A DNA stretch of 64,000 bases from Hydra vulgaris (Eukaryota; Cnidaria; Hydrozoa; Anthoathecata; Hydridae), in NCBI RefSeq assembly GCF_038396675.1, contig NC_088930.1:33732501-33796500 (forward strand), written 5' to 3'. Below, one piece after another: positions 37,971-60,666 of this stretch. The notes under the pieces were generated by a model, which worked only from the letters and a program-made list of their open reading frames with translations, was not told where the DNA came from and did no database searches. Made by a program: the position numbers and the translations under genes. Every line of letters begins with the position of its first letter. The stretch's first letter is position 1.

Positions 37971-39749
37971 TCACAAATATTTTTCATACGAATGAATTGT
38001 TTTCAGCAACATGTCATCTTTTTCAATTTTTTCTGCAAATTCTGTACAGTAATATTTTCTTAAATTAAATTTAACGAAATTTTTCGGAAACAATCGCTCT
38101 ACGGAAGCGTTTGTACCGCTTTGTAAGCGTTTGTTTGGCAAACATAAAGCGGCTTCTACCAATTTTAACAAATTAATTTTAAGGAACGTGATTATTTTCA
38201 AAATGAGAAAAAATTTCAACCCATCACTTGTCACATTCAACAGATTGTGAGTTTCAAGAAGAAAACGTTTCCTTTGTGCAATATAGTTCTCCGAATTTCG
38301 CCGAACAATTCATTGTCATCGAATGTGATTTCAATTGATCTTTTCAAATAAATTATAGTTTCAATAATTTCAATCCATTCAACTTTACAGTTAATTAAAA
38401 ACCATTTAAATACTTCAACCTGATTTAAGTGACGCGTCCACTCATCTATATACTCTAGACAGACACTGTAAAAAATGTCTAATTCTTTCAGAAATTAGAA
38501 ATGACTAAGGTAGAAATTTTTCTTCTTTTCTAGATTTTATTTGGTCTTTCAAATCATTTAATACTACGGCAACTTCAGCAGCAGAAATATTATCTTTCTC
38601 AATTTTTTTTACCGTGTTATAAAAAGCATTGACTTGACTGTGAACAAAAAACAATACTATTTAACCCATTTCGTTATTGAAAAATCAAATAAAAGTTTCG
38701 GACAATTTTCTAAGTTTAAAAAGTATGATCTTAGTGGCTGATATAACTTAAGCACTCTTTTGATAGCTGGAAGTAAGGTCAACCAACGAACTTCTGAGAA
38801 TCCTAGCAATTATTGATATTCCACACCGTCCTCTATTGTCATTACCGTTTCGTTATAAACCTCCAAAATTGGCGTTGGATTTGTCTGCAGAAATAGCCAA
38901 AACTTTTTAAGAAATGTTGTTAGCACTAATGCATTTAAAGATAACTTCTGATAAAATATCTAATATTTTTCCATTTACGCAATCCATGTTAATTTTGAGC
39001 CGCCGTGGCGCAGTGGTTAGAGTTCTGGCTCAGAACCCAGAGGTCCAGGATTCAACGCCGGCTCTAGCCCAATAAGCGACATTGGTAAGTAAGGAGGCGT
39101 GAACTTGCCGTTAAATGCTCTCCCGCGGTATTCCGTGATAAGACCGTAAGGACTTCTGGAAACACCTAAAAAAAAAATGTTAATCAGCTGAATTTGCACC
39201 CCCTCTTTAACATCAAAATGACGAGCCCAAAATTGGATACATTTTAACGTCCTTGTAGTTTGATGCATCAGAAAGAATTGATACATATGATGCTTTTAAT
39301 AAAGCATTTTCTGAGTTAGTTTCACAATATTTCTTTAACACGTTTACAATAATTGTTTCACATTTTGTACGCGCACAAGCAAATCTTGGATTATAAAATT
39401 TCTTAATTAGCTTTGATGTACAATCAGCACTTCTGAAGTTATGGTTGTGTTTGATTGTGTGGAATGCAGTTGTTCCTTCTTGAATGACTAATATTTTTTC
39501 ATTTTGACCAAAGCTCCGACTCTTCATCAACTTTGTAATTTTGTTTGACAATATAGAAACATCCAATGCCATTTTGTGTTTGATAGATTTGCAATGATCT
39601 TCAATTGCAGACCGTTTACGACTACTAATGTCAAATAGGCTTTGACAAATAGTGCATTTGAGGAGCTCATCTTTGATCTGCGTTAAGAAAGGAAACATTT
39701 TCTTTAAATTATCGTTAAATGTGTTTAACCTTCTCTTCTTACTATTCAT
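37971..39749 (-). pseudogene. hAT transposase, broken and split by a SINE
   Basis: The N-terminal 130 residues are intact from the ATG at 39,749: a BED-like finger (CTICQSLFDISSRKRSAIED then HCKSIKHK), then KKFYNPRFACARTKCETIIV, NVLKKYCE and SYVSILSDASNYKDVKMYPI. The S-D-A-S-N block is the first catalytic region (D). The SINE at 38,994-39,176 interrupts the sequence just after KEGVQIQL. Coding remnants continue beyond it with many stops to LVEAALCLPNKRLQSGTNAS and VERLFPKNF near 38,150, which resembles the C-terminal dimerisation block (N-A-x-V-E-R-x-F). It is dead as read. The 5' side abuts the 16-bp tandem array at 39.8 kb. Confidence 0.8.
38994..39176 (+). mobile_element. tRNA-derived SINE, family 2, full length with target duplication
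   Basis: A full 183-bp copy. The A box region is CCGTGGCGCAGTGGTTAGAG and the B box CAGGATTCAACGCC. The body is AGCCCAATAAGCGACATT and AAGGAGGCGTGAACTTGCCG, and the 3' part is CCGTGATAAGACCGTAAGGA plus CTTCTGGAAACACCTA and an A tail. ATGTTAAT flanks both sides (38,986-38,993 and 39,177-39,184). It sits inside a hAT transposase relic, so it is younger than that element. Confidence 0.92.
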
Positions 39750-39796
39750 TTTTTGAATTTGATGTATAAATAGTTATAAAAACCCTAAATTACTTT

Positions 39797-40145
39797 TTTA
39801 TGAACACTTATTTTTATGAACACTTATTTTTATGAACACTTATTTTTATGAACACTTATTTTTATGAACACTTATTTTTATGAACACTTATTTTTATGAA
39901 CACTTAGTTTTATGAACACTTAGTTTTATGAACACTTAGTTTTATGAACACTTAGTTTTATGAACACTTAGTTTTATGAACACTTAGTTTTATGAACACT
40001 TAGTTTTATGAACACTTAGTTTTATGAACACTTAGTTTTATGAACACTTAGTTTTATGAACACTTAGTTTTATGAACACTTAGTTTTATGAACACTTAGT
40101 TTTATGAACACTTAGTTTTATGAACACTTAGTTTTATGAACTTTT
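39797..40145. repeat. 16-bp tandem array, about 21 copies
   Basis: The unit is TGAACACTTAGTTTTA. The first six or so copies read TTATTTTTA and all later ones TTAGTTTTA, so a variant took over and spread along the array. It lies directly upstream of the hAT relic's start codon. Confidence 0.93.
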
Positions 40146-48902: not shown

Positions 48903-51900
48903 ATGTTAAATAGTAAGCCATTGAGTTCTCTCAGTACTGAAGAGCTTGCGAGGGCTCTTAAGTCACTGAATTTAAATGTTGGTCCAATAACATCTTCAAC
49001 TAGAAAAATTTATGAAAATCGTTTAAAAGAACATTTGCTTAAAACTATAGAAAGTAATCCATCTAACGAAAAGCCGAATAATTGTGTTTCTAATACATTA
49101 GAAGAAGATAATTTTCAAAATAACATTAACAGCAATAATAATTTTATAAATAAAACAGATATAATAGATAGTGAAGTTTCTAATGGAGAATCAAAGCCTC
49201 AAAACTTTTATGCAGTGTGGACACCAATATCATTAAAAACTGAGAATGGTGTTAAAACACCAAATATCTATACCTCTCAAAAAAACGCTTTAGCTTTTAT
49301 GAAAGAGAACCGTGGTTCTAGATTTAAACTTTTCAAGAGCATTGAAGAGGCAGAACATTTTTCATTATCAAAATTAGACAAACCTAATGTCGAAAAAGTT
49401 GTATCATCAAATAGGGTTAATAATGTGGAAAGCAAAATAATATTTAAATCACCAACATTTCACGAACTTTTGAAATTTAAAAAATATATTGAAGAAGGAA
49501 ATTTTTTAGAAGTACAAAAATGTTTATGCAATCCAAGATATTTAATTACATCATTAGATATGCCTGTAATTCTTCAAGAAGGTTGTCGCTATAATCCTAT
49601 GCATGTTGCTGTGCATGCAAATAAACCTAACATATGTAAATACTTTATTGAACTTTTGCATTCACACAAATTTCTTAAGCTTGTATTTTCAGATGAAAGT
49701 GATGATTTAAATTTTAGAGAAAGACAATTAGTGGACATCTTTCTAAATACTCCTGATAAGGCGGTGAGGTTTTTTCATATATAGATAAATTTAAAATAAT
49801 TTAGAACAGTCTTTGAATAAAAATGTACACACGCATGATAAAAGATGGCTTTAGCCTTCATATCTAATCTTTTTGGGTTATATATTAAGGAACATTCAAA
49901 TAATATATGATTTTTGCTTTTTAAAGCCCATTTTCATTGTCACATTGCAACATTTTTTTAGGAATATATTTATATATATTTTTTTGAAAATAAAAATTCT
50001 GTTCAACAGTTTCTTATGTTACATTTTCTATTATCTTAACAACCCATTACTTTTCTAGGGTGCCACGGATTGTTATTAAAAAATATACAAAAAATACTTC
50101 AGTGAAAAACACTTCTTAGATAATCTTAGATAAGAGTTTCAAGTTTTTATAAACAGTCAAAGTTAAAGACAATAACTTTGTTAAATATCTGTAAAGTTTT
50201 AGTTAACAATGCAAGTTGTGATTTAAAAACTTTGAAGGAGGAATTTATTACCCTGTACTTAAAAACCTGATGTTGCAAGTCATGTTATAAAGTATTATTT
50301 TTCCAAAAAAGCTGTGGAAATATTTCATTATCTTTTGTTTAATATATTCTAATATATTGTTTAAACATCCTTCAATTAAAATTTATATTTTTAATGAGGT
50401 TGGTATTTTAATATTGTTTTGAAACTTTGAGTTATATTAGATCTAAGTCTGTTATAAAAATTTTAGTTAAATCTCCACTAACCACCCCCATATTTGTGCT
50501 TCATTGTAGGATACAAAAGTTTCCTATAATGAAATACTGTTTTTCTGGAAGATTTTTCTATTTGATCTCAGTTTGATACACATTTTATGTTAAAACATTT
50601 CCAAGCTATATTCAGAATTTTCAGATTGAGAAAATTTAGCTGTTTATATATAATAGTTTTCACAAATTTATTTTTATGTAATATCTGTTTTTCTAAATCT
50701 TTAACTTGGTATATGAATAAAAAAATTTAGAAATTACAAAATACTTTTAAAGTACTGAATTTTTTATTTAGTTAGTTTTATATTTTATTTATTATCTTAG
50801 TTTTAATATAATAAATGTATAAGTTGTCTCTTATAAGTCACTCTTATACTCTTGTAAGTCACAATATTTTGTTGACTATTGTTTCTCTATATTGAATGTT
50901 ATATTTTGTGCAACCAAGTTCCTAACCGGTGTTAATTGATTTTAGTGTTCTTAATTGTATTTGCTGCATTTCTTGCTTTATTTTATTGATGCTAGCACAA
51001 AGTAGTGGTGCAATATGGATCTATAAGCCTTTTTTAATTATTTTTTATTAATCGGTCAAATCATTTGAGCAAGTATTTCTCTTTGAAAGCCTTGTGTTTT
51101 TATCATCAGGTCTATTTCTAATCTTTTGATTAGACATAGGCTTAATGAGAAAGGCAATTTGAGGCAATTCCATTATTGATACAAAAAAGTGCTTTGATGC
51201 GCTTCCATTGTTAATCAGAATATAATTGATATTTAAGTCTTAAATCCTAGGTATTAACATGAGTTTGTGTGTTTAACTCTGAAGTAAATTTTAGCAATTT
51301 CAGTTTACTTGAAATGGTCATAGTTTTCATTTTTTTATTTTAAATAACATTTTGTTATTAAAACCAACATAAACATTGTTTCAAATTCTTTGTGTTAAGA
51401 ATAATTGTTGAATTCTTGTGTTAAGGTTTTGTATTGAAGTACTGTGAGCAAGTTGCATTGTCTTTGACAATGTAAGCAAGAATATTGTTGGCAAATTTGT
51501 TTTATTTAGAATTGCATTCAAAAAGTATGATTGTATAAGAAATGCTTGAGGTTGCTACTTTGTTTTTATTCAAAACTTGTTGGTGTCTAGCTCCCATGTA
51601 CATACAAATGAAAATCCATGAAAAACATGGATTACGTTGTACAACGAATTAAGCCATGTAGGAAAGTTCTTAGTTAGCTTGGTAAATAGAAGGTATTTAG
51701 AAGTAACATATTTTCTTATTTAGTATTTACTTAATTGTAAATTTTTTTTTTTTTTAAGTTTTCTACAAGAATTTTTTCAAATTTTATAACAGTTAATAGT
51801 GGTTAATACCTAACAAATATCTAAATACCTATGACAAAAAAAATTCTTAAATAACAAATACCTAAAAAAGCAACAACAACCTAACTATCTAAAACAAAAA

Positions 51901-54900
51901 TGTGTTTATATAACAATTAAAAATTGAAGTAAAAGTTTTAAAGATATATTTAAGTTGACATAAAACAATGAAATTGAAAGAATTAATGAACCATTAAAAA
52001 GTACCAAATTATTAATGTTTTTTTTTAGATTGGTTAACAGCATATTACCTTTACCTTTCTAAGGTTCACCATTTTATCTTTCAAATTAATATAACAGCAA
52101 ACTAACTTCATCTTTTTAATATTTACTATTTTACCTTTCAGATTTTTAATGCAGCATACTAGTTTCACTTTTTGTTAGGCTAGTAAACTAATATTTTATA
52201 ATAACTAAAGTTTTATGTTTTATGTATGTATATAATGTATATTAGTATGTATATAATGTATTATATTATATATAATATTAGTAATAACATAAAAATGTTA
52301 CATCTTATAATTAAATGTATAAGTTTCAATTTTCAAATAAAATGTGAATAAAATAAAAACATTTATTCACATTTTAATTAGAATTAGTTTTAATGTTTTT
52401 AATTTCTAAACCTTAGTATTTATTAAAATTAACTATAGATGAGTATTTACCATTACTAATACCAGTGTTTACTTAAAATTGAGAAAGTTTTTTAGATGTT
52501 AATAAGACTAGTTTTAACTTTAGTGTTGTGATACACCCTTATTTATTTATTTTAGTGTTGTGATACACCCTTATTTATTTATTTTAGTGTTGTGATACAC
52601 CCTTATTTATTTATTTTAGTGTTGTGATACACCCTTATTTATTTATTTTAGTGTTGTGATACACCCTTATTTATTTATTTTAGTGTTGCGATACACCCTT
52701 ATTTATTTATTTTAGTGTTGTGATACACCCTTATTTATTTATTTTAGTGTTGCGATACACCCTTATTTATTTATTTTAGTGTTGTGATACACCCTTATTT
52801 ATTTATTTTAGTGTTGTGATACACCCTTATTTATTTATTTTAGTGTTGCGATACACCCTTATTTATTTATTTTAGTGTTGTGATACACCCTTATTTATTT
52901 ATTTTAGTGTTGTGATACACCCTTATTTAATTATTTTAGTGTTGTGATACACCCTTATTTATTTATTTTAGTGTTGTGATACACCCTTATTTAATTATTT
53001 TAGTGTTGTGATACACCCTTATTTATTTATTTTAGTGTTGTGATACACCCTTGCACACTGCATGTAAGTTTTGTTTTAAAGAAATAGTAGTATTTCTATT
53101 GACATGCAAAGAAACTGATCTTAAATCAATTAACAAAGATGGTTTTACTGCATTCCAGGTAATCTATTTTTACAGTTTTTTATTTTATTTTTTATTAGTG
53201 TTATAAAGTATAAACATTTATGTTTTACTTTAGGTCATTGGTCAAAGAATAAATAATCAATCACCTCTTATACAAGATATCAGGGAATTGTTTGAAGGTA
53301 AATTTAATGTTTATGTGTAAATTTAATGTTATGTTTGAACTATTACAGTTCAATACAGTATTATGGTTAGAAGATTTAACATTCTTTTTATAAGGTGATG
53401 ATTTTTTTTTGTGATCAATAAATTTTTATTATTTTTTATATAGTTTTTTTTTTTTTTTAATTTTATTGTATTTTACTTGTTAAAAAATTATAAGTTTAGC
53501 TAAAATTATTAATCCTTTAAATTAGGTTTTATTAGTTATTGTTTATCATTAGCAGTGAGAAAATATTGAAGAAAAACAAAAATATTAAGTTTTCCTCTGT
53601 CAAAAACTCTTCTAAATAATCATTGTTTGCCAAATAATCAGTTAGTTAGACTAGAAAGCATTTCCACAAAAGCAACTCAATCGAGAACAGATTTATTTTT
53701 ATTATTGAAATCAAATAAATTAGGTTCAGTAATTTAGTTTAACATTACATCTTTTATAAATGGATCTGATCATATTACCTTTTCCAAGGATAAGGGAATA
53801 CTATTTGTAAAAAACTTTTTTTCTGATTTGTTTCTTGAGTCAAATGTTCACACATTTCCTTTTATCCCAATGAAACAGGTTTATTCATTGATGTACCCTC
53901 ATGGTTGTCCGGTGGCACAGGACAACTCGTTTTCTCAAAGGGCGACTGAAATTTAAAACAATGGCAGGACGACCAGACAGTTTATTACTTACAAAAGTAT
54001 GTTTAATAATAAAACCATATTTTGAACTATGAAGATTTTATTCCTTGTGATTATTTGAAAAAAACCTTTAAGAAGCATTCAAAGTAGTATACACTTCGTT
54101 TAATATTGATAAACTTCGGTGCATTTTACAAAATTTTAATAAACTTGTTGATAAAAAGCCAACACGCAATTTAATATTTATAAGTGCGACTTTACTTTCT
54201 TTTTTTGCATTTTGAAGCACATTTCTTCTCAATTCAAAAATAAATTTTAAAATTACATTTTTTTTCAATTCAAAAATCACACGAATGTCATTAGTAAAAT
54301 CAATTTTTAGTTTAACTTTGTCAAACAAAATTAGTAATAAAAATAATTAATGATAATAATTATATATAATAATAATAGTTAATAATATTAATAATGATAA
54401 TTATAATAATGATAATTAATAAAAAACATTATTAGAATGCATGTAAAAAAACATTATTAGAATGTACTTAATGATGCACGTGGAAATTTTTTTTTTTTAA
54501 AAAAAGAAGTCTTAGTGACGTTACAATAAAAACATTATGTTTTTATTGTAACGAATTACAATAAAAACATAATGTTTTAAACATTCAACTAAATTAAATT
54601 TGATTGAAGATTTAGAGAGATTAATAGAATATTTTTCTTTTTACAAAATGTTTCTTTGCAGTTTTGGCTTTCACCTTTTTTGCTCTGTCTGATGAAACTT
54701 ATCGTAAGATTGACAAAAAGAAACAACACGAAACCGATATTGACTACAATAACTTTTTTTTTGACTGTTCAAAAATTTTAAATAATCAAAAAAAATTATA
54801 ATGGATGAGGTTTTTCATTATTGCTGCTTTAATGTTGCTTTTTTAAAACCTTGCAAATTACAGATGTGAGTAATATTTGTTAATAATTTGAAAAAGTTAG

Positions 54901-57900
54901 TCTCTTCTTTTTGAAGACTGGCAAGGTGTTAGTTGATTTCCAAAAAATAGGAAAAAAACAACTTAAAAGAGCTTCAGAGAAACCATTGTGACAATTGTGT
55001 AGTGGATGACGGTGAATACTGTCACCACCCAGGGTATTGTATGAGTTATAATTTTTTGAGAGAAGAGTGATCAAATATACTGATGTTAAATGTTCTTGAA
55101 TTAAAAATTAGAATTGGAAAAGATAATTATAGAAAATTTTTTTAAAAACTGAATAAAAGTTAGTTAGAATTTAGTTTAGCTTTTTTGCAATTTGAGCTTG
55201 GTTGTAAACCCTAAGATAGTTCAGAAGAGAACATTTTGTTACTTAGGTTATTTTAAAAGCTTCTAGAAAATTACAATTTTGAAAGAAAACTCTAGCTCTG
55301 GTATTCTTAAATCTAATTTTGCTAAAAATATATTTTATAAAAAATTTACAAGTTAAAATATTTACCAAAATTTTACTACTTGCTACATTTAATTTGTTCA
55401 AAAATAGAATATGCAATTTATTGAGACAGTAAAAAATTGTATAATACAAAGTTTTTAAATAGCAAATTCAACTAAAATGTGCTTTTTAGTTTCAAACTCA
55501 ACGAGGATGTCATATCAGATCATGCCACAAATATTAAATAATTATTTTTTAATATTCGAAGCAATGTACTAAAAATTATTTTTCCTTCTAAATTTTTTTT
55601 TAAAACTTTTTTCAAATGCCTTATATTTATTTTTCAGTCATTGATCTTATTCTTTATTCATTGTAAGAACAGATTTGTTACAAGTAAGTTTCTCGTAAAA
55701 AGAATTAACCAAATTTCCGAAGTCCTAGGAAATTTACTTTGAAACCTTTGGATTTTTATCACTTAACTTTTAATTTCCTGTTTATGATTGCTATTTAATC
55801 AAGGATCTTAAGAGTCCTCTAATTGAAAGAATATTTGAAAGAAGGATCTTGTTAGCTTCCTAAGAATTTTTGATAATCCTCAATCTTTAAAAAGTGGTAT
55901 GGATAATAACTTATTTTGCATACCATCTTAAACTATATAAATCTATGATAAGTTTAGTTATTGAAATAATTTGTAGGCTCTTCACAATAATTGAAAATAT
56001 AATGTAGAAGACAACAATAAGCTAAACAATAGTAACATAGTAGCAACAATTTAGATTACTCATATAAAAATTCAATTTAGATTACTCATATAAAAAATCA
56101 GAAAAATTTTTAACAAAAAAATTACAACTTGGAATAAGTTGTAATAAATCAATTTAGTGTCGAGAATTCATTTTGTTTTGAAGCTACTAACAAAAGATCA
56201 CTTAATTTACATATAAGCTATTAATATATTCAATGTATAAATTTACATATAAGCTATTAATATATTCAATGTATAAATTTACATATAAGCTATTAATATA
56301 TTCAATGTATAAACTTACATATAAGCTATTAATATATTCAATGTATAAATTTACATATAAACTATTAATATATTCAGTGTTGAGGCTGAAATGGTAATTA
56401 GTTCAACCCGATTATTTTTTTGAATTTTCTAAAAAGGTTTTTTTCATTGGTTTTTCTAAAAAGGTTTTTTCCATTGGTTTTTCTAAAAAGCCAGAAAAAA
56501 AAAGGAATTAAATAGTTTGTTCAATTACTTGTATTTTTTGCTAAAAATAAATATAACTTATAATAATTACCCCTATCTTGGCTTTACCAAAAAGGTCTGA
56601 AATTCTCAATCTTTACTTGTGACTGAAAATGAGATCTCATAATAAATGTTCATCAAAACAACAGCAGTCTTGATTTCAACAATTTTCCTGCAAAATGGTC
56701 TTTCCCATAATTTCTATGTTCTTTGATGACTAATTCTTTTTAAAGTTTTTCTAGAAGCTTTTAAAGTAGACTTTTAAAGTAATTCTTTACCACAAAATAG
56801 GTCATCTTTTAGACTAATTCATTTATAGAACTATTTATCTTTTACCAAATTAAGTAAACTGTTTGAAAGAGCATTGTTCCACAGACTCTTGAATTTTTTG
56901 AGGAAATTTTCAATCTTTACAAGTATCAATATGATTTGATATCTGTAAAGATTTAAATAACCCTTTCTTCAACACTGCACTTTTTAATAAAAATATATAG
57001 AAGTCACAATCACTCAACAAATCATTCATTAATAGAAAGTTATCTTGATCAGATATAAGGGTTAAAATATAAAGTTACTTTGCAAGGTTCAAACAAGTTT
57101 CAAACAGGTTCAAAACAGAAATTATTTTGCTCTTGTACCATTTCTCCATCACTTTTTTAATAAAAGTATATAGAAGTTACAATGGTATATATTATAAGTT
57201 ATAGAAACTTCTTCTCTAATTATCTTCTTCATAATAATCCACAGTAATATCTATTTGATAATGTGTAACTGGTTTACCTGTAGCATTTCACACAAGTTTA
57301 TTGGTTTCACTTTCACAAGTTTATTTGTTTTGCTTTCACAGATTTTTTGGTTTTACTTTCACAAGTTATTTGTTTTACTTTAATATTTTTTAATAAAATT
57401 GTTATTTATCTGTTTTATTCATTAAGCATTAAATTCCAATACAAAGCGTATGTTAAAACCTTTTAATACAATGCAAGGTTGTTGCAATGTGAATATATTA
57501 GATAGAACTTATAAGAAAAAAAAAATAGTTTTTTTAATTTTGAAGAATAAATGTGTATTTAAATGTTATTTACAGTAATTTTTCATTGTATATTTATATT
57601 TTGTAACTTGAGTACATAATAAATTAAATCATTTTATACTTAGCTCTAAGAGCTAATTTAGAAAGTATTTCAATAGCATCTTCTTTTGTGATATCCAAAA
57701 TCCACTACAAGAAAGCCAAAATTATTTAAAAACTGAGTAAAGTTATTGCATTATAAAAATAAATGGTAGCAAAGGTTTGTAAATTTTGTTGTCCGGGGCC
57801 GGGTTTGTGACCGGGGCTGCATAAACAATTATACATCCTAAAGTATATTATTTTTATTCAAAATTCATCTTATATTTTGTATATATATGCATATATAAAC

Positions 57901-60666
57901 ATCATTATGATCAACATGATCATCATTACCATTATATTCATGATCATGATTATTATCATCATTATCATCATCGTCATTACCATCAGGCTTTACTCTTTTG
58001 TGCTGTTTCTCTAATATAAACAATCTAGAGAATTTTCTTTCTTTAACTAAACCTCATTCATACAATATATAAGGCACTCTCTTCAAGTTTTCTTACTTCT
58101 ACCACTACCATTTTCTCCTGAAATTTCTACCTCTCTAAATGCCTCTAAATACCTAAATCACTTTAGTCTTCTCTAACAAATGTTGTCCGATAAGACGCTT
58201 TTTTCTAATCTGCCTATGCCTCCTTTTCTTGTCGTGTTAGAGTCACACCACACATTCATCTGATCATCTTCTATTTTGGCAAGTACTACATCATATAAAT
58301 AATAAAGTTTATATAAATATGAAATGATATTGTTTGCTAGCATCTAAATAAATGGCAAAAATATATGTTTATACCCATAATATGTATGCATAAAGTGCAT
58401 CTTGGAAGCTTTTATTCCTTCTGGAATAAAAGCTTGGAAGCTTCTATTCCTTCTCTTCAATATTAAGTCAAGCCTCATTCTACTTTGCATTTTTTACCAT
58501 CTTGAGCAGTTGCTCTATTAAACAGTAATCATTTTGATCTTTTTTACAAGAACATCTCTCTTATAAACAAAAGTCCTTTTATTATTCCAAGAAGCAAAAA
58601 AAAAAAAAAAAAGGTCCTGTCTGATGTTAAGCTCTGTAAAAAGGTCCTGTCCGATGTTAAGCTCTGTAAAAAGGTCCTGTCTGATGTTAAGCTCTGTTAT
58701 TCTAAGTTTACTAAATCTTGTTTCATATCTTAGATGTTAAGATAGAGAAGCTTTTGGTAATTTTTCAACAGTGTCATTAACTAAAGTAAGTCTAACATGT
58801 AATCTCTAATTCATGGGTCTGACTTTTTACTTCTCCCCAGCAGAGTTTTTTGCAAAAAAATCTTGCTCTAATTCAACTCTTGAATCTAATGGCCACACTC
58901 TTTTTGCTAGTTAAACAGATTAACCCATTGCTAAACATTAAAATCACTATGGCTTCTAATGCTAAAGTTCTCAATTGAACACTTCTACAGTTTGTGCTTC
59001 AGAGAAGATTTCCATCATAGTCTTAAAAAAGTGATCTCCAGGATTCTTTTCAATTTTTGCTAAACTTTAAAAAGTGCTAAATAAGTGGTTCCAATTTTTC
59101 AAAACTCTAGAAAACATTTTGACCTCTCCAACTATCCTACAATTAGTCTTCACTCTGTTATTAGTTACTTTATATAAAGTTTCTGAGATTAATGAATTAT
59201 TTCTTTCTAACTGCAGTATTAAAGTTATTCTTGAAGGCCTACACTCCAATTTATTTCAAGTAACTTTAAGGGTACCAAAAAGTTCTATCTTTACTCTTTT
59301 AATGTTTCTTATCTACAATAACAATCTTCATGAAAATTTTACATCTAAAGTACCTCTATTAGCTAAGGACTCAACTTTATACTCTTGTATTGACAAAAAA
59401 CCTTCACTTTTTGATTGCTTAGAACAAGCATCCAATTTTTAATCTGATCTCTTTTCTGTAACTTTGCCTAAGGTTTGCAGTGGCTTGTGGATTTAAATTT
59501 TTAAGGTAACAAAACTCATTTATTTACTGCAAAAAATATTGCAATATTGTTGGCATTCTTATATTGATGAATAACAACCCTCTTACTCTCAGACAAAGTC
59601 TAAAAGCACATTGTAAATGTAATTAGACTTGCTTTATCTGCCAAGCTTTAGCCACTCTCCCGTTGTTGCAAGGTTGCATTTCTTTCTTTTTTCTACAAAT
59701 CCTATCATGGTCAATGTTTAAATAAGCTATCATCACTATTATGATAAACCAAAACTCATTCTTACTTGGCTTCTTATTCAACAAGTTACATCCTTTTACT
59801 GTATCTGTCCCTTCATGCTAAAACTTTTATTAATTCACTTTTTTATCCTTGCAGATCAAAAAAGCCTTTTAACTTTTCCCCATCTTCTTTTTTTGATTTT
59901 TAATACATCCTGCAACTTTTAATGTCTTTAGGTAACCATTTTCTAGTATTTTAACTTGTCCTCTATTTTAACGTAACTCATAACTTAACAATGGTTGCTT
60001 GCAATCTTGTTGAAAGTAAATTAGAGTTTAAAAATATATAAATATATGTCAGTATATAATAATAGTAAATGGAAATTTAAAATTGTAATACAAAATGTAT
60101 TATGAATTTTTTTCTAGCCTAGGCTAATCTGCTAAATCTTATAATTTGGCTGGGGTAGGTTTCCAAAAAGTCTCATTTTAGGCCAGGGCCGGCCCCCCAT
60201 CACTTACTAAATGGCTACCATCACAACTAATCTTGGTAGAAAATTGTAAATAGAAAATTGTTGTCTTTGTACACCAAAATCATTACACCAATCACATTTC
60301 TAATTCATATTCATCAAAGAACATAGCCATATGCTCATTGGAAAATTGTCATAAAAAAAATCAGAAAATGATTAAATATTTCATACAAATATTTAATCAT
60401 TTTCTGATTTTTTTTATGACAATTTTCCAATGAGCATATGGCTATGTTCTTTGATGAATATGTTTGTCAACATTTTTCTTTTCTGTTAGTTTGTGAAAGT
60501 CAAGCATAAATATTGTTTTTATATTTTAGAAAAAGCTTATATTCCTCTGTATAAAAATGATTTCAATCCTTGTGTTGGGCAACCAATTATTACCATATTA
60601 CCTATAGATGAGGATTTTTCAGCTGAAAAAATAAAAGCTTACGTTGGACCTGTTGCTCCTGCAAAG
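48903..60666 (+). CDS. ANKLE2: ANKLE2 (LEM4) homologue, first four coding exons, incomplete at the 3' side
   Basis: Join 48,903-49,763, 53,036-53,158, 53,234-53,297 and 60,530-60,666. All four exons use GT donors and AG acceptors, and the phases agree. Residues about 6-46 form a LEM domain (LSTEELARALKSLNLNVGPI then TSSTRKIY), which binds the chromatin protein BAF. Residues 102-154 (FYAVWTPI, YTSQKNALAFMKENRGSRFK, LFKSIEEAEHF) form the RNase H1 N-terminal/viroplasmin-like module of ANKLE2. Ankyrin sequence runs from about 183 across exons 1-3, with the signature NPRYLI, QEGCRYNPMHVAV, LNTPDKA then CCDTPLHTACKF. Exon 4 ends KAYVGPVAPAK, matching L-R-A-F-A-G-P-L-S-P-A-K of the animal protein. 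ANKLE2 recruits PP2A and restrains VRK1 so that BAF reassembles the nuclear envelope after mitosis. The N-terminal membrane segment of the vertebrate protein is not seen. The next exon was not found before 64,000. Confidence 0.9.
49764..52523 (+). other. ANKLE2 intron 1, unique part
   Basis: The donor GTGAGG follows codon GCG. The intron is AT-rich with no coding signal. A hairpin lies at about 52,338-52,376 (AAAATGTGAATAAA against TTTATTCACATTTT). Confidence 0.75.
52524..53052 (+). repeat. 32-bp tandem array made of splice acceptor plus start of ANKLE2 exon 2
   Basis: Seventeen copies at exact 32-bp spacing. Each unit is TGTTGTGATACACCCTT (17 nt, identical to the first 17 nt of exon 2) followed by ATTTATTTATTTTAG (15 nt, the acceptor tract). 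Three copies read TGTTGCGATAC and two have TTTAATTA. The last copy, starting at 53,036, is the true exon start. Entry at any earlier AG shifts frame (32 is not a multiple of 3) and meets TGA or TAG. The first copy is preceded by a different tract (GTTTTAACTTTAG). Confidence 0.95.
53640..53915 (+). pseudogene. Degenerate Jockey-like LINE scrap in ANKLE2 intron 3
   Basis: An open stretch reads SFINGSDHITFSKDKGILFV then KNFFSDLFLESNVHTFPFIP and MKQVYSLMY. It aligns with LLYGSDFVTSPKNKAELFAK, NFSSILSLDSINHILPDIAD and KQVDPL of the 1.3-kb copy. Only the linker before RT survives, so the assignment is moderate. Confidence 0.5.
54520..54575. repeat. Overlapping palindromes
   Basis: GTTACAATAAAAACATTATG faces its own complement twice: 54,520-54,552 and 54,531-54,575 are both hairpins sharing the middle GTTTTTATTGTAAC. 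Confidence 0.8.
56206..56388. repeat. 36-bp tandem array, five copies
   Basis: The unit is TTTACATATAAGCTATTAAT plus ATATTCAATGTATAAA, with one or two changes per copy. The fifth ends diverged (AAACTATTAA, TTCAGTG). Just downstream, at 56,434-56,490, a 30-bp unit (AAAAAGGTTTTTTTCATTGG) occurs twice. Confidence 0.9.
57970..60015 (+). pseudogene. Degenerate near-full-length Jockey-like LINE in ANKLE2 intron 3
   Basis: Same family as the 42-44 kb copy but much decayed. Blocks keep their order: SIPSLQY-VKPHSTLHF near 58,438 (end of endonuclease), GSDFLLLP near 58,820, then the longest open piece (59,074-59,442) with FLSNCSIKVILEGLHSNLFQ, VTLRVPKSSIFTLLMFLIYN and SKVPLLAKDSTLYSCIDKKP, where the catalytic F-A-D-D has become L-A-K-D. 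Past 59,640 come the C-terminal part and a 3' end (AATGGTTGCTTGCAATCTTG near 59,990). Frequent stops and the lost catalytic pair show it is inactive. It lies in sense orientation within the host gene. Confidence 0.75.
58602..58698. repeat. 30-bp tandem repeat, three copies
   Basis: AAAAAGGTCCTGTCTGATGT plus TAAGCTCTGT three times, after an A run of about 17. It lies within the LINE relic. Confidence 0.9.
60306..60462. repeat. Long hairpin, arms about 74 bp, next to ANKLE2 exon 4
   Basis: CATATTCATCAAAGAACATA and GCCATATGCTCATTGGAAAA on the left are mirrored with almost no mismatch on the right, with a loop of under 10 nt. It ends 67 bp before the exon 4 acceptor. Confidence 0.92.

Follow-up and report, generated by a model that had tools for sequence, protein, structure and literature searches.

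Tandem repeats that span exon-intron boundaries have been described in amphioxus, where they are termed mirages and occur in the Adh, troponin C and globin genes (PMC3902484). In the globin gene BflGb6, a minisatellite-like tandem duplication comprises the 3' end of the B12.2 intron together with the start of exon 2, and its units of 150-160 bp, which share 81-100% identity, are present in six and three copies in two haplotypes (PMC3087553). Many of the amphioxus duplicates, though not all, retain splice signals, and in the available part of the same paper the Adh3 data and globin RT-PCR are taken by the authors to suggest regular splicing, while BflGb6 itself is listed with partial cDNA coverage (PMC3087553). 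The mirages of Adh3 (Canestro et al. 2002, cited in PMC3087553) are built of repeats of 10-72 bp, which are unstable in length, with somatic instability reported, and which are said to leave splicing undisturbed.

The locus considered here lies in the ANKLE2 gene of Hydra vulgaris, within a stretch of 64,000 nucleotides that is referred to below as the window. On its plus strand, positions 52519-53052 harbor 17 near-identical splice acceptors, and behind each of them stand the opening 17 nt of ANKLE2 exon 2. A script run over the window found the pattern AG/TGTTG[T/C]GATACACCC (the first slash marks the splice site) 17 times, the first exonic bases lying at 52524, 52556 and onward to 53036, with 16 of the 16 spacings being exactly 32 nt. 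The same interval was delimited by TRF with a period of 32, 16.7 copies and 98% matches, and its score of 1033 was the highest among the 97 TRF rows of the window. The repeat unit, TGTTGTGATACACCCTTATTTATTTATTTTAG, is composed of a T-rich tract, an AG and the exon start; the exonic part common to all units is the 17 nt TGTTGTGATACACCCTT, and the AG is kept in all 17 copies. These results bear out a preliminary description of this DNA, which had claimed a 17-copy array of 32-bp units and had recognized that it is the splice junction that has been multiplied.

Small differences exist between the copies. Units 6, 8 and 11 carry a single T-to-C change in the exon-like part, while units 13 and 15 carry a single T-to-A change in the tract, so that the tracts preceding acceptors 2-17 are identical except before acceptors 14 and 16; the left side of acceptor 1 differs from those of the others. 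The distribution of these variants would fit the in-place duplication of blocks of several units. When 22 bases of the unit were looked for as an exact string in the searched part of the genome (911.5 Mb, 15 contigs), 14 matches were obtained, all of them inside the array and none outside it, the remaining three of the 17 copies being missed because they carry the C variant, and the reversed control of this piece gave 0 matches. The array is not a chance occurrence. Viral contigs, from which records of the window's genome may have been left out, gave 0 matches. Older, decayed units to the left of the array were also considered, and no sign of them was seen, as 230 of 500 shuffles equalled the highest local score obtained for the left flank.

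In comparison with the amphioxus systems, 17 in-register copies of a tandem unit lie over an exon-intron boundary in Hydra, an acceptor AG is found in every duplicate, and the authentic boundary is the copy at the edge, since only the 17th acceptor (1/17) keeps the frame. The array is thus best read, on its organization, as a cnidarian example of the mirage minisatellites. Similar to BflGb6, a 3' splice site and an exon start are repeated, and in the available account of BflGb6 the authentic section is likewise named apart from the duplicates; the Hydra array differs in its 32-bp unit, its 17 copies, its 98% matches and its cnidarian rather than amphioxus host. The Adh3 mirages resemble it as short repeats over an exon-intron boundary, whereas the lancelet PGBD5 repeats, as far as they are described in the available text, are imperfect and include a 108-bp triplication, in contrast with the 17 near-identical short units of Hydra (PMC3902484). 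Variable internal tandem repeats at exon-intron boundaries are also known from human segmental-duplication genes, where the available text connects such repeats with the appearance of new introns and with alternative retention, while the intron position in Hydra looks old (PMC2812944). The preliminary description, which knew of no case in which a splice junction forms the repeat unit, had therefore overlooked the amphioxus mirages, as these duplicate exon-intron boundaries (PMC3087553, PMC3902484, in the parts available). It is the many short units that distinguish the Hydra array, the mirage class being already known from amphioxus. A search of the open-access literature found no cnidarian mirage, which is a weak negative.

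The coding context of the array was established from the joined exons (Table 1), which gave 113 matches in a protein search, the best being the Hydra vulgaris ankyrin repeat and LEM domain-containing protein 2, isoform X1. This protein was identical to the joined exons at 376 of 395 residues, including all 41 residues of exon 2, and the alignment was ungapped at the junction. Isoform X1 is another H. vulgaris sequence, differing from the present gene at 19 of 395 residues, and its contig has 56,075,473 bases compared with 56,659,762 for that of the window; its record is probably a gene-model prediction, and the label "X1" suggests that additional ANKLE2 isoforms exist. Across the window and 19.5 kb beyond it, in-frame tblastn matches covered 665 of the 665 residues of isoform X1 over a span of about 33.5 kb, with four more exons located past the window end. 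The coding part of ANKLE2 looks intact, and a pseudogene is ruled out for this part, as all 665 residues are readable. In Pfam, the LEM domain of exon 1 passed its cut-off, while ankyrin matches in both exon 1 and exon 2 stayed under the respective cut-offs. A comparison of the exon 2-4 part with solved structures gave 34 distinct matching sequences; the names listed were ankyrin-repeat or designed repeat proteins of other kinds, none of them ANKLE2.

Table 1. Positions of the array and of the ANKLE2 exons and introns in the window
Feature	Position	Strand	Basis
32-bp minisatellite, 16.7 copies	52519..53052	+	TRF, script
Exon-start copies 1-16, 17 nt each, none frame-keeping	52524..53020 (first 52524-52540, last 53004-53020)	+	script, frame table
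ANKLE2 exon 1, coding part, LEM domain, phase 0 end at donor GCG/GTGAGG	48903..49763	+	residues 1-287 of Hydra ANKLE2 isoform X1
Intron 1, last acceptor used, 3272 nt, holding acceptors 1-16	49764..53035	+	frame table
ANKLE2 exon 2, 123 nt, phase 0/0, ankyrin region, begins at 17th acceptor	53036..53158	+	
Intron 2, 75 nt	53159..53233	+	
ANKLE2 exon 3, 64 nt	53234..53297	+	
ANKLE2 exon 4, 137 nt	60530..60666	+	

Other tandem repeats are found in the introns of this gene. Intron 1 holds a 57-bp segment in 1.9 copies (77%) at 52035-52144, which ends some 375 bases before the array begins, and intron 3 contains a 36-bp unit in 4.9 copies (56204-56380, 97%) and a 30-bp unit in 3.0 copies (58608-58697, 96%).

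When exon 1 was joined to each acceptor in turn, acceptor 17 (53036) was the sole frame-keeper among the 17, remaining open through exon 4 and yielding TPDKA/CCDTPLHTACKF, which matches the junction of isoform X1; the earlier claim that only the last acceptor leads into the ankyrin frame was thereby confirmed. A premature stop followed all of the other 16 acceptors, TGA in 12 cases and TAG in four. The TGA was located at exon nt 70 for these 12, whereas acceptors 4, 6 and 9 run on to a TAG at exon nt 94, because their TGA is abolished by the C variant found two units further on, and acceptor 16 reaches a TAG at exon nt 82. The preliminary description had correctly assigned TAG to acceptor 16, although its assignment of TGA to all earlier acceptors fails for acceptors 4, 6 and 9. 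The stops lie 71-563 nt ahead of the exon 2/3 junction, so that 16 of the 16 alternative junctions place a premature stop before a later junction, a structural feature shared with regulated poison-exon (AS-NMD) switches.

The tract of each unit contains three YTNAY candidates for a branch point, located 14, 10 and 6 nt ahead of the final base of the AG, together with a looser GTGAT candidate about 24 nt before it, which is altered by the C variant before acceptors 7, 9 and 12. As the upstream 30 nt are near-identical across acceptors 2-17, the branch point would hardly set the last acceptor apart. The preliminary description had posed an alternative, that either the branch point forces the last AG or much transcript is mis-spliced; its first arm, taken alone, is unlikely, given that acceptors 2-17 share nearly the same candidate branch points. 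According to the scanning model, the first AG after the branch point is often preferred, and a branch point situated 5' of all the units would be expected to serve the first AG. The branch point of the last acceptor would therefore be expected in the preceding unit, whose copy of coding sequence would thus act as intron.

What separates the 17th acceptor from the others is its downstream side: behind the other copies, 17 nt of exon are followed by another acceptor tract, and the 17th is probably the one used in the functional mRNA, since it is the only copy with a full exon behind it and lies closest to the exon 2 donor, at a distance of 123 nt. The last acceptor would then be selected by exon context. 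Given the 3272-nt intron 1, exon definition may reasonably be supposed. Competition between duplicated 3' splice sites was reportedly investigated by Reed and Maniatis in 1986, with exon sequence and proximity being said to matter. RNA structure hiding the upstream acceptors was also considered and set aside, as the copies share their folding and the last one is not marked out by folding alone. The array folds better than shuffled sequences (z -2.28), 1 of 100 shuffles being at least as good; in the folded array many units form 4-bp hairpins, and some units pair with one another over longer stretches. Within 52523-53048, each unit contains the near-palindrome GTGT-TGYGAT-ACAC, from which a 4-bp hairpin over the exon start is possible.

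Taken together, we consider it probable that a mirage-type array is combined here with a last acceptor that makes the functional mRNA. A 32-bp segment across the intron 1/exon 2 boundary of a readable ANKLE2 gene would have been expanded in place to 17 copies. In mammals, nonsense-mediated decay follows a 50-55 nt rule; if this rule holds in Hydra, leakage to acceptors 1-16 would turn the resulting RNA into a decay target.

Frequent skipping of exon 2, in which the array would disturb acceptor choice and 41 ankyrin-region residues would be lost in frame, is regarded as unlikely. The phase 0/0 of exon 2 permits such a product, and the join of exon 1 to exon 3 is also open through exon 4; the one named Hydra protein found nevertheless includes exon 2, with the proviso that other forms may be masked by the 90% identity clustering. 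Somewhat less credence is given to dosage control, according to which a copy-number-dependent share of transcripts would use acceptors 1-16, gain a stop and be destroyed, the array length thereby setting the ANKLE2 level. The stop behind every upstream acceptor, at the distances from the next junction given above, accords with this proposal, as does the near equality of the upstream tracts of acceptors 2-16 with that of the last. An AT-rich unit of 32 nt, however, likely holds a stop in three frames anyway (an estimate rather than a computed value), and the stops are therefore no sign of selection. Moreover, amphioxus mirages reportedly leave splicing undisturbed, at least in the parts of the papers available (PMC3087553, PMC3902484). 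No truncated isoform was present among the four proteins obtained when the truncated form served as query, in a search that covered proteins of 0.55-1.75 times the query length, up to 542 aa.

A still lower probability is assigned to the idea that the array represents a natural splicing rheostat tunable by copy number, in which the number of competing acceptors would set the amount of productive ANKLE2 transcript; if it were true, somatic drift of copy number in this clonally budding animal would lead to drift of the ANKLE2 level. It is just as improbable that an upstream acceptor predominates in vivo, leaving most ANKLE2 mRNA of this strain unproductive: the first-AG preference of scanning models would favor such a choice, whereas the gene is readable over its full length and the residues of exon 2 are equal in both sequences compared. 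Inflation of a smaller array or a single acceptor by misassembly, tandem arrays being a known assembly hazard, is the least probable of all, as the internal units bear variants at separate places and the 534 bp of the array are far below the read lengths of the HiFi-based HydraT2T_AEP assembly, which this genome (911.5 Mb, 15 contigs) appears, from its size, to be. In the available description, HydraT2T_AEP comprises 912 Mb in 15 chromosomes, produced from HiFi contigs with Nanopore gap filling and Illumina polishing, and HydraT2T_105 comprises 834 Mb (PMC12220107).

The genomic background was surveyed by TRF on 20 ten-kb samples (200 kb in total, including 5,000 N), which yielded 14 rows with a unit of 15-100 and at least 5 copies, five of them with at least 8 copies; some of the rows overlap and represent the same array (L011, L018, L024). 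Two arrays of these samples are near-perfect, namely a 35-bp unit in 7.9 copies at 100% (L029, 5373-5650) and a 49-bp unit in 15.2 copies at 99% (L022, 3784-4529), which suggests that such repeats are frequent in the Hydra genome. With minisatellites so frequent, some overlap with exon boundaries would be expected. The window itself contains a second large minisatellite at 39796-40141, with the 16-bp unit TTTTATGAACACTTAG in 21.6 copies at 99% matches, which is located just upstream (minus strand) of a 186-aa frame at 39213-39773.

The boundary on which the array is situated was compared with proteins of relatives. The frame P0002 of a relative ends in TPDKTVRI, as expected of one that enters a GTGAGG donor, and in the anemone protein P0005 the residues VSFAGK are inserted where the intron 1 junction would fall. 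We infer that both represent run-through into the intron, whose position is apparently shared and old. The array therefore probably grew on an existing boundary and does not constitute evidence for intron gain. Most likely, the array is neutral or mildly costly and would have been retained as splicing tolerates such repeats.

The Hydra array suggests that mirages extend beyond amphioxus, and it bears on the origin of boundary duplications and on whether such duplications seed new introns. It also constitutes a natural competition test, in which 16 acceptors are almost alike in tract, in branch-point region and in the 17 nt of exon that come first, and differ mainly in their distance from the donor and in what comes after them; junction counts at the array would reveal whether exon context, order or distance governs the choice of acceptor.
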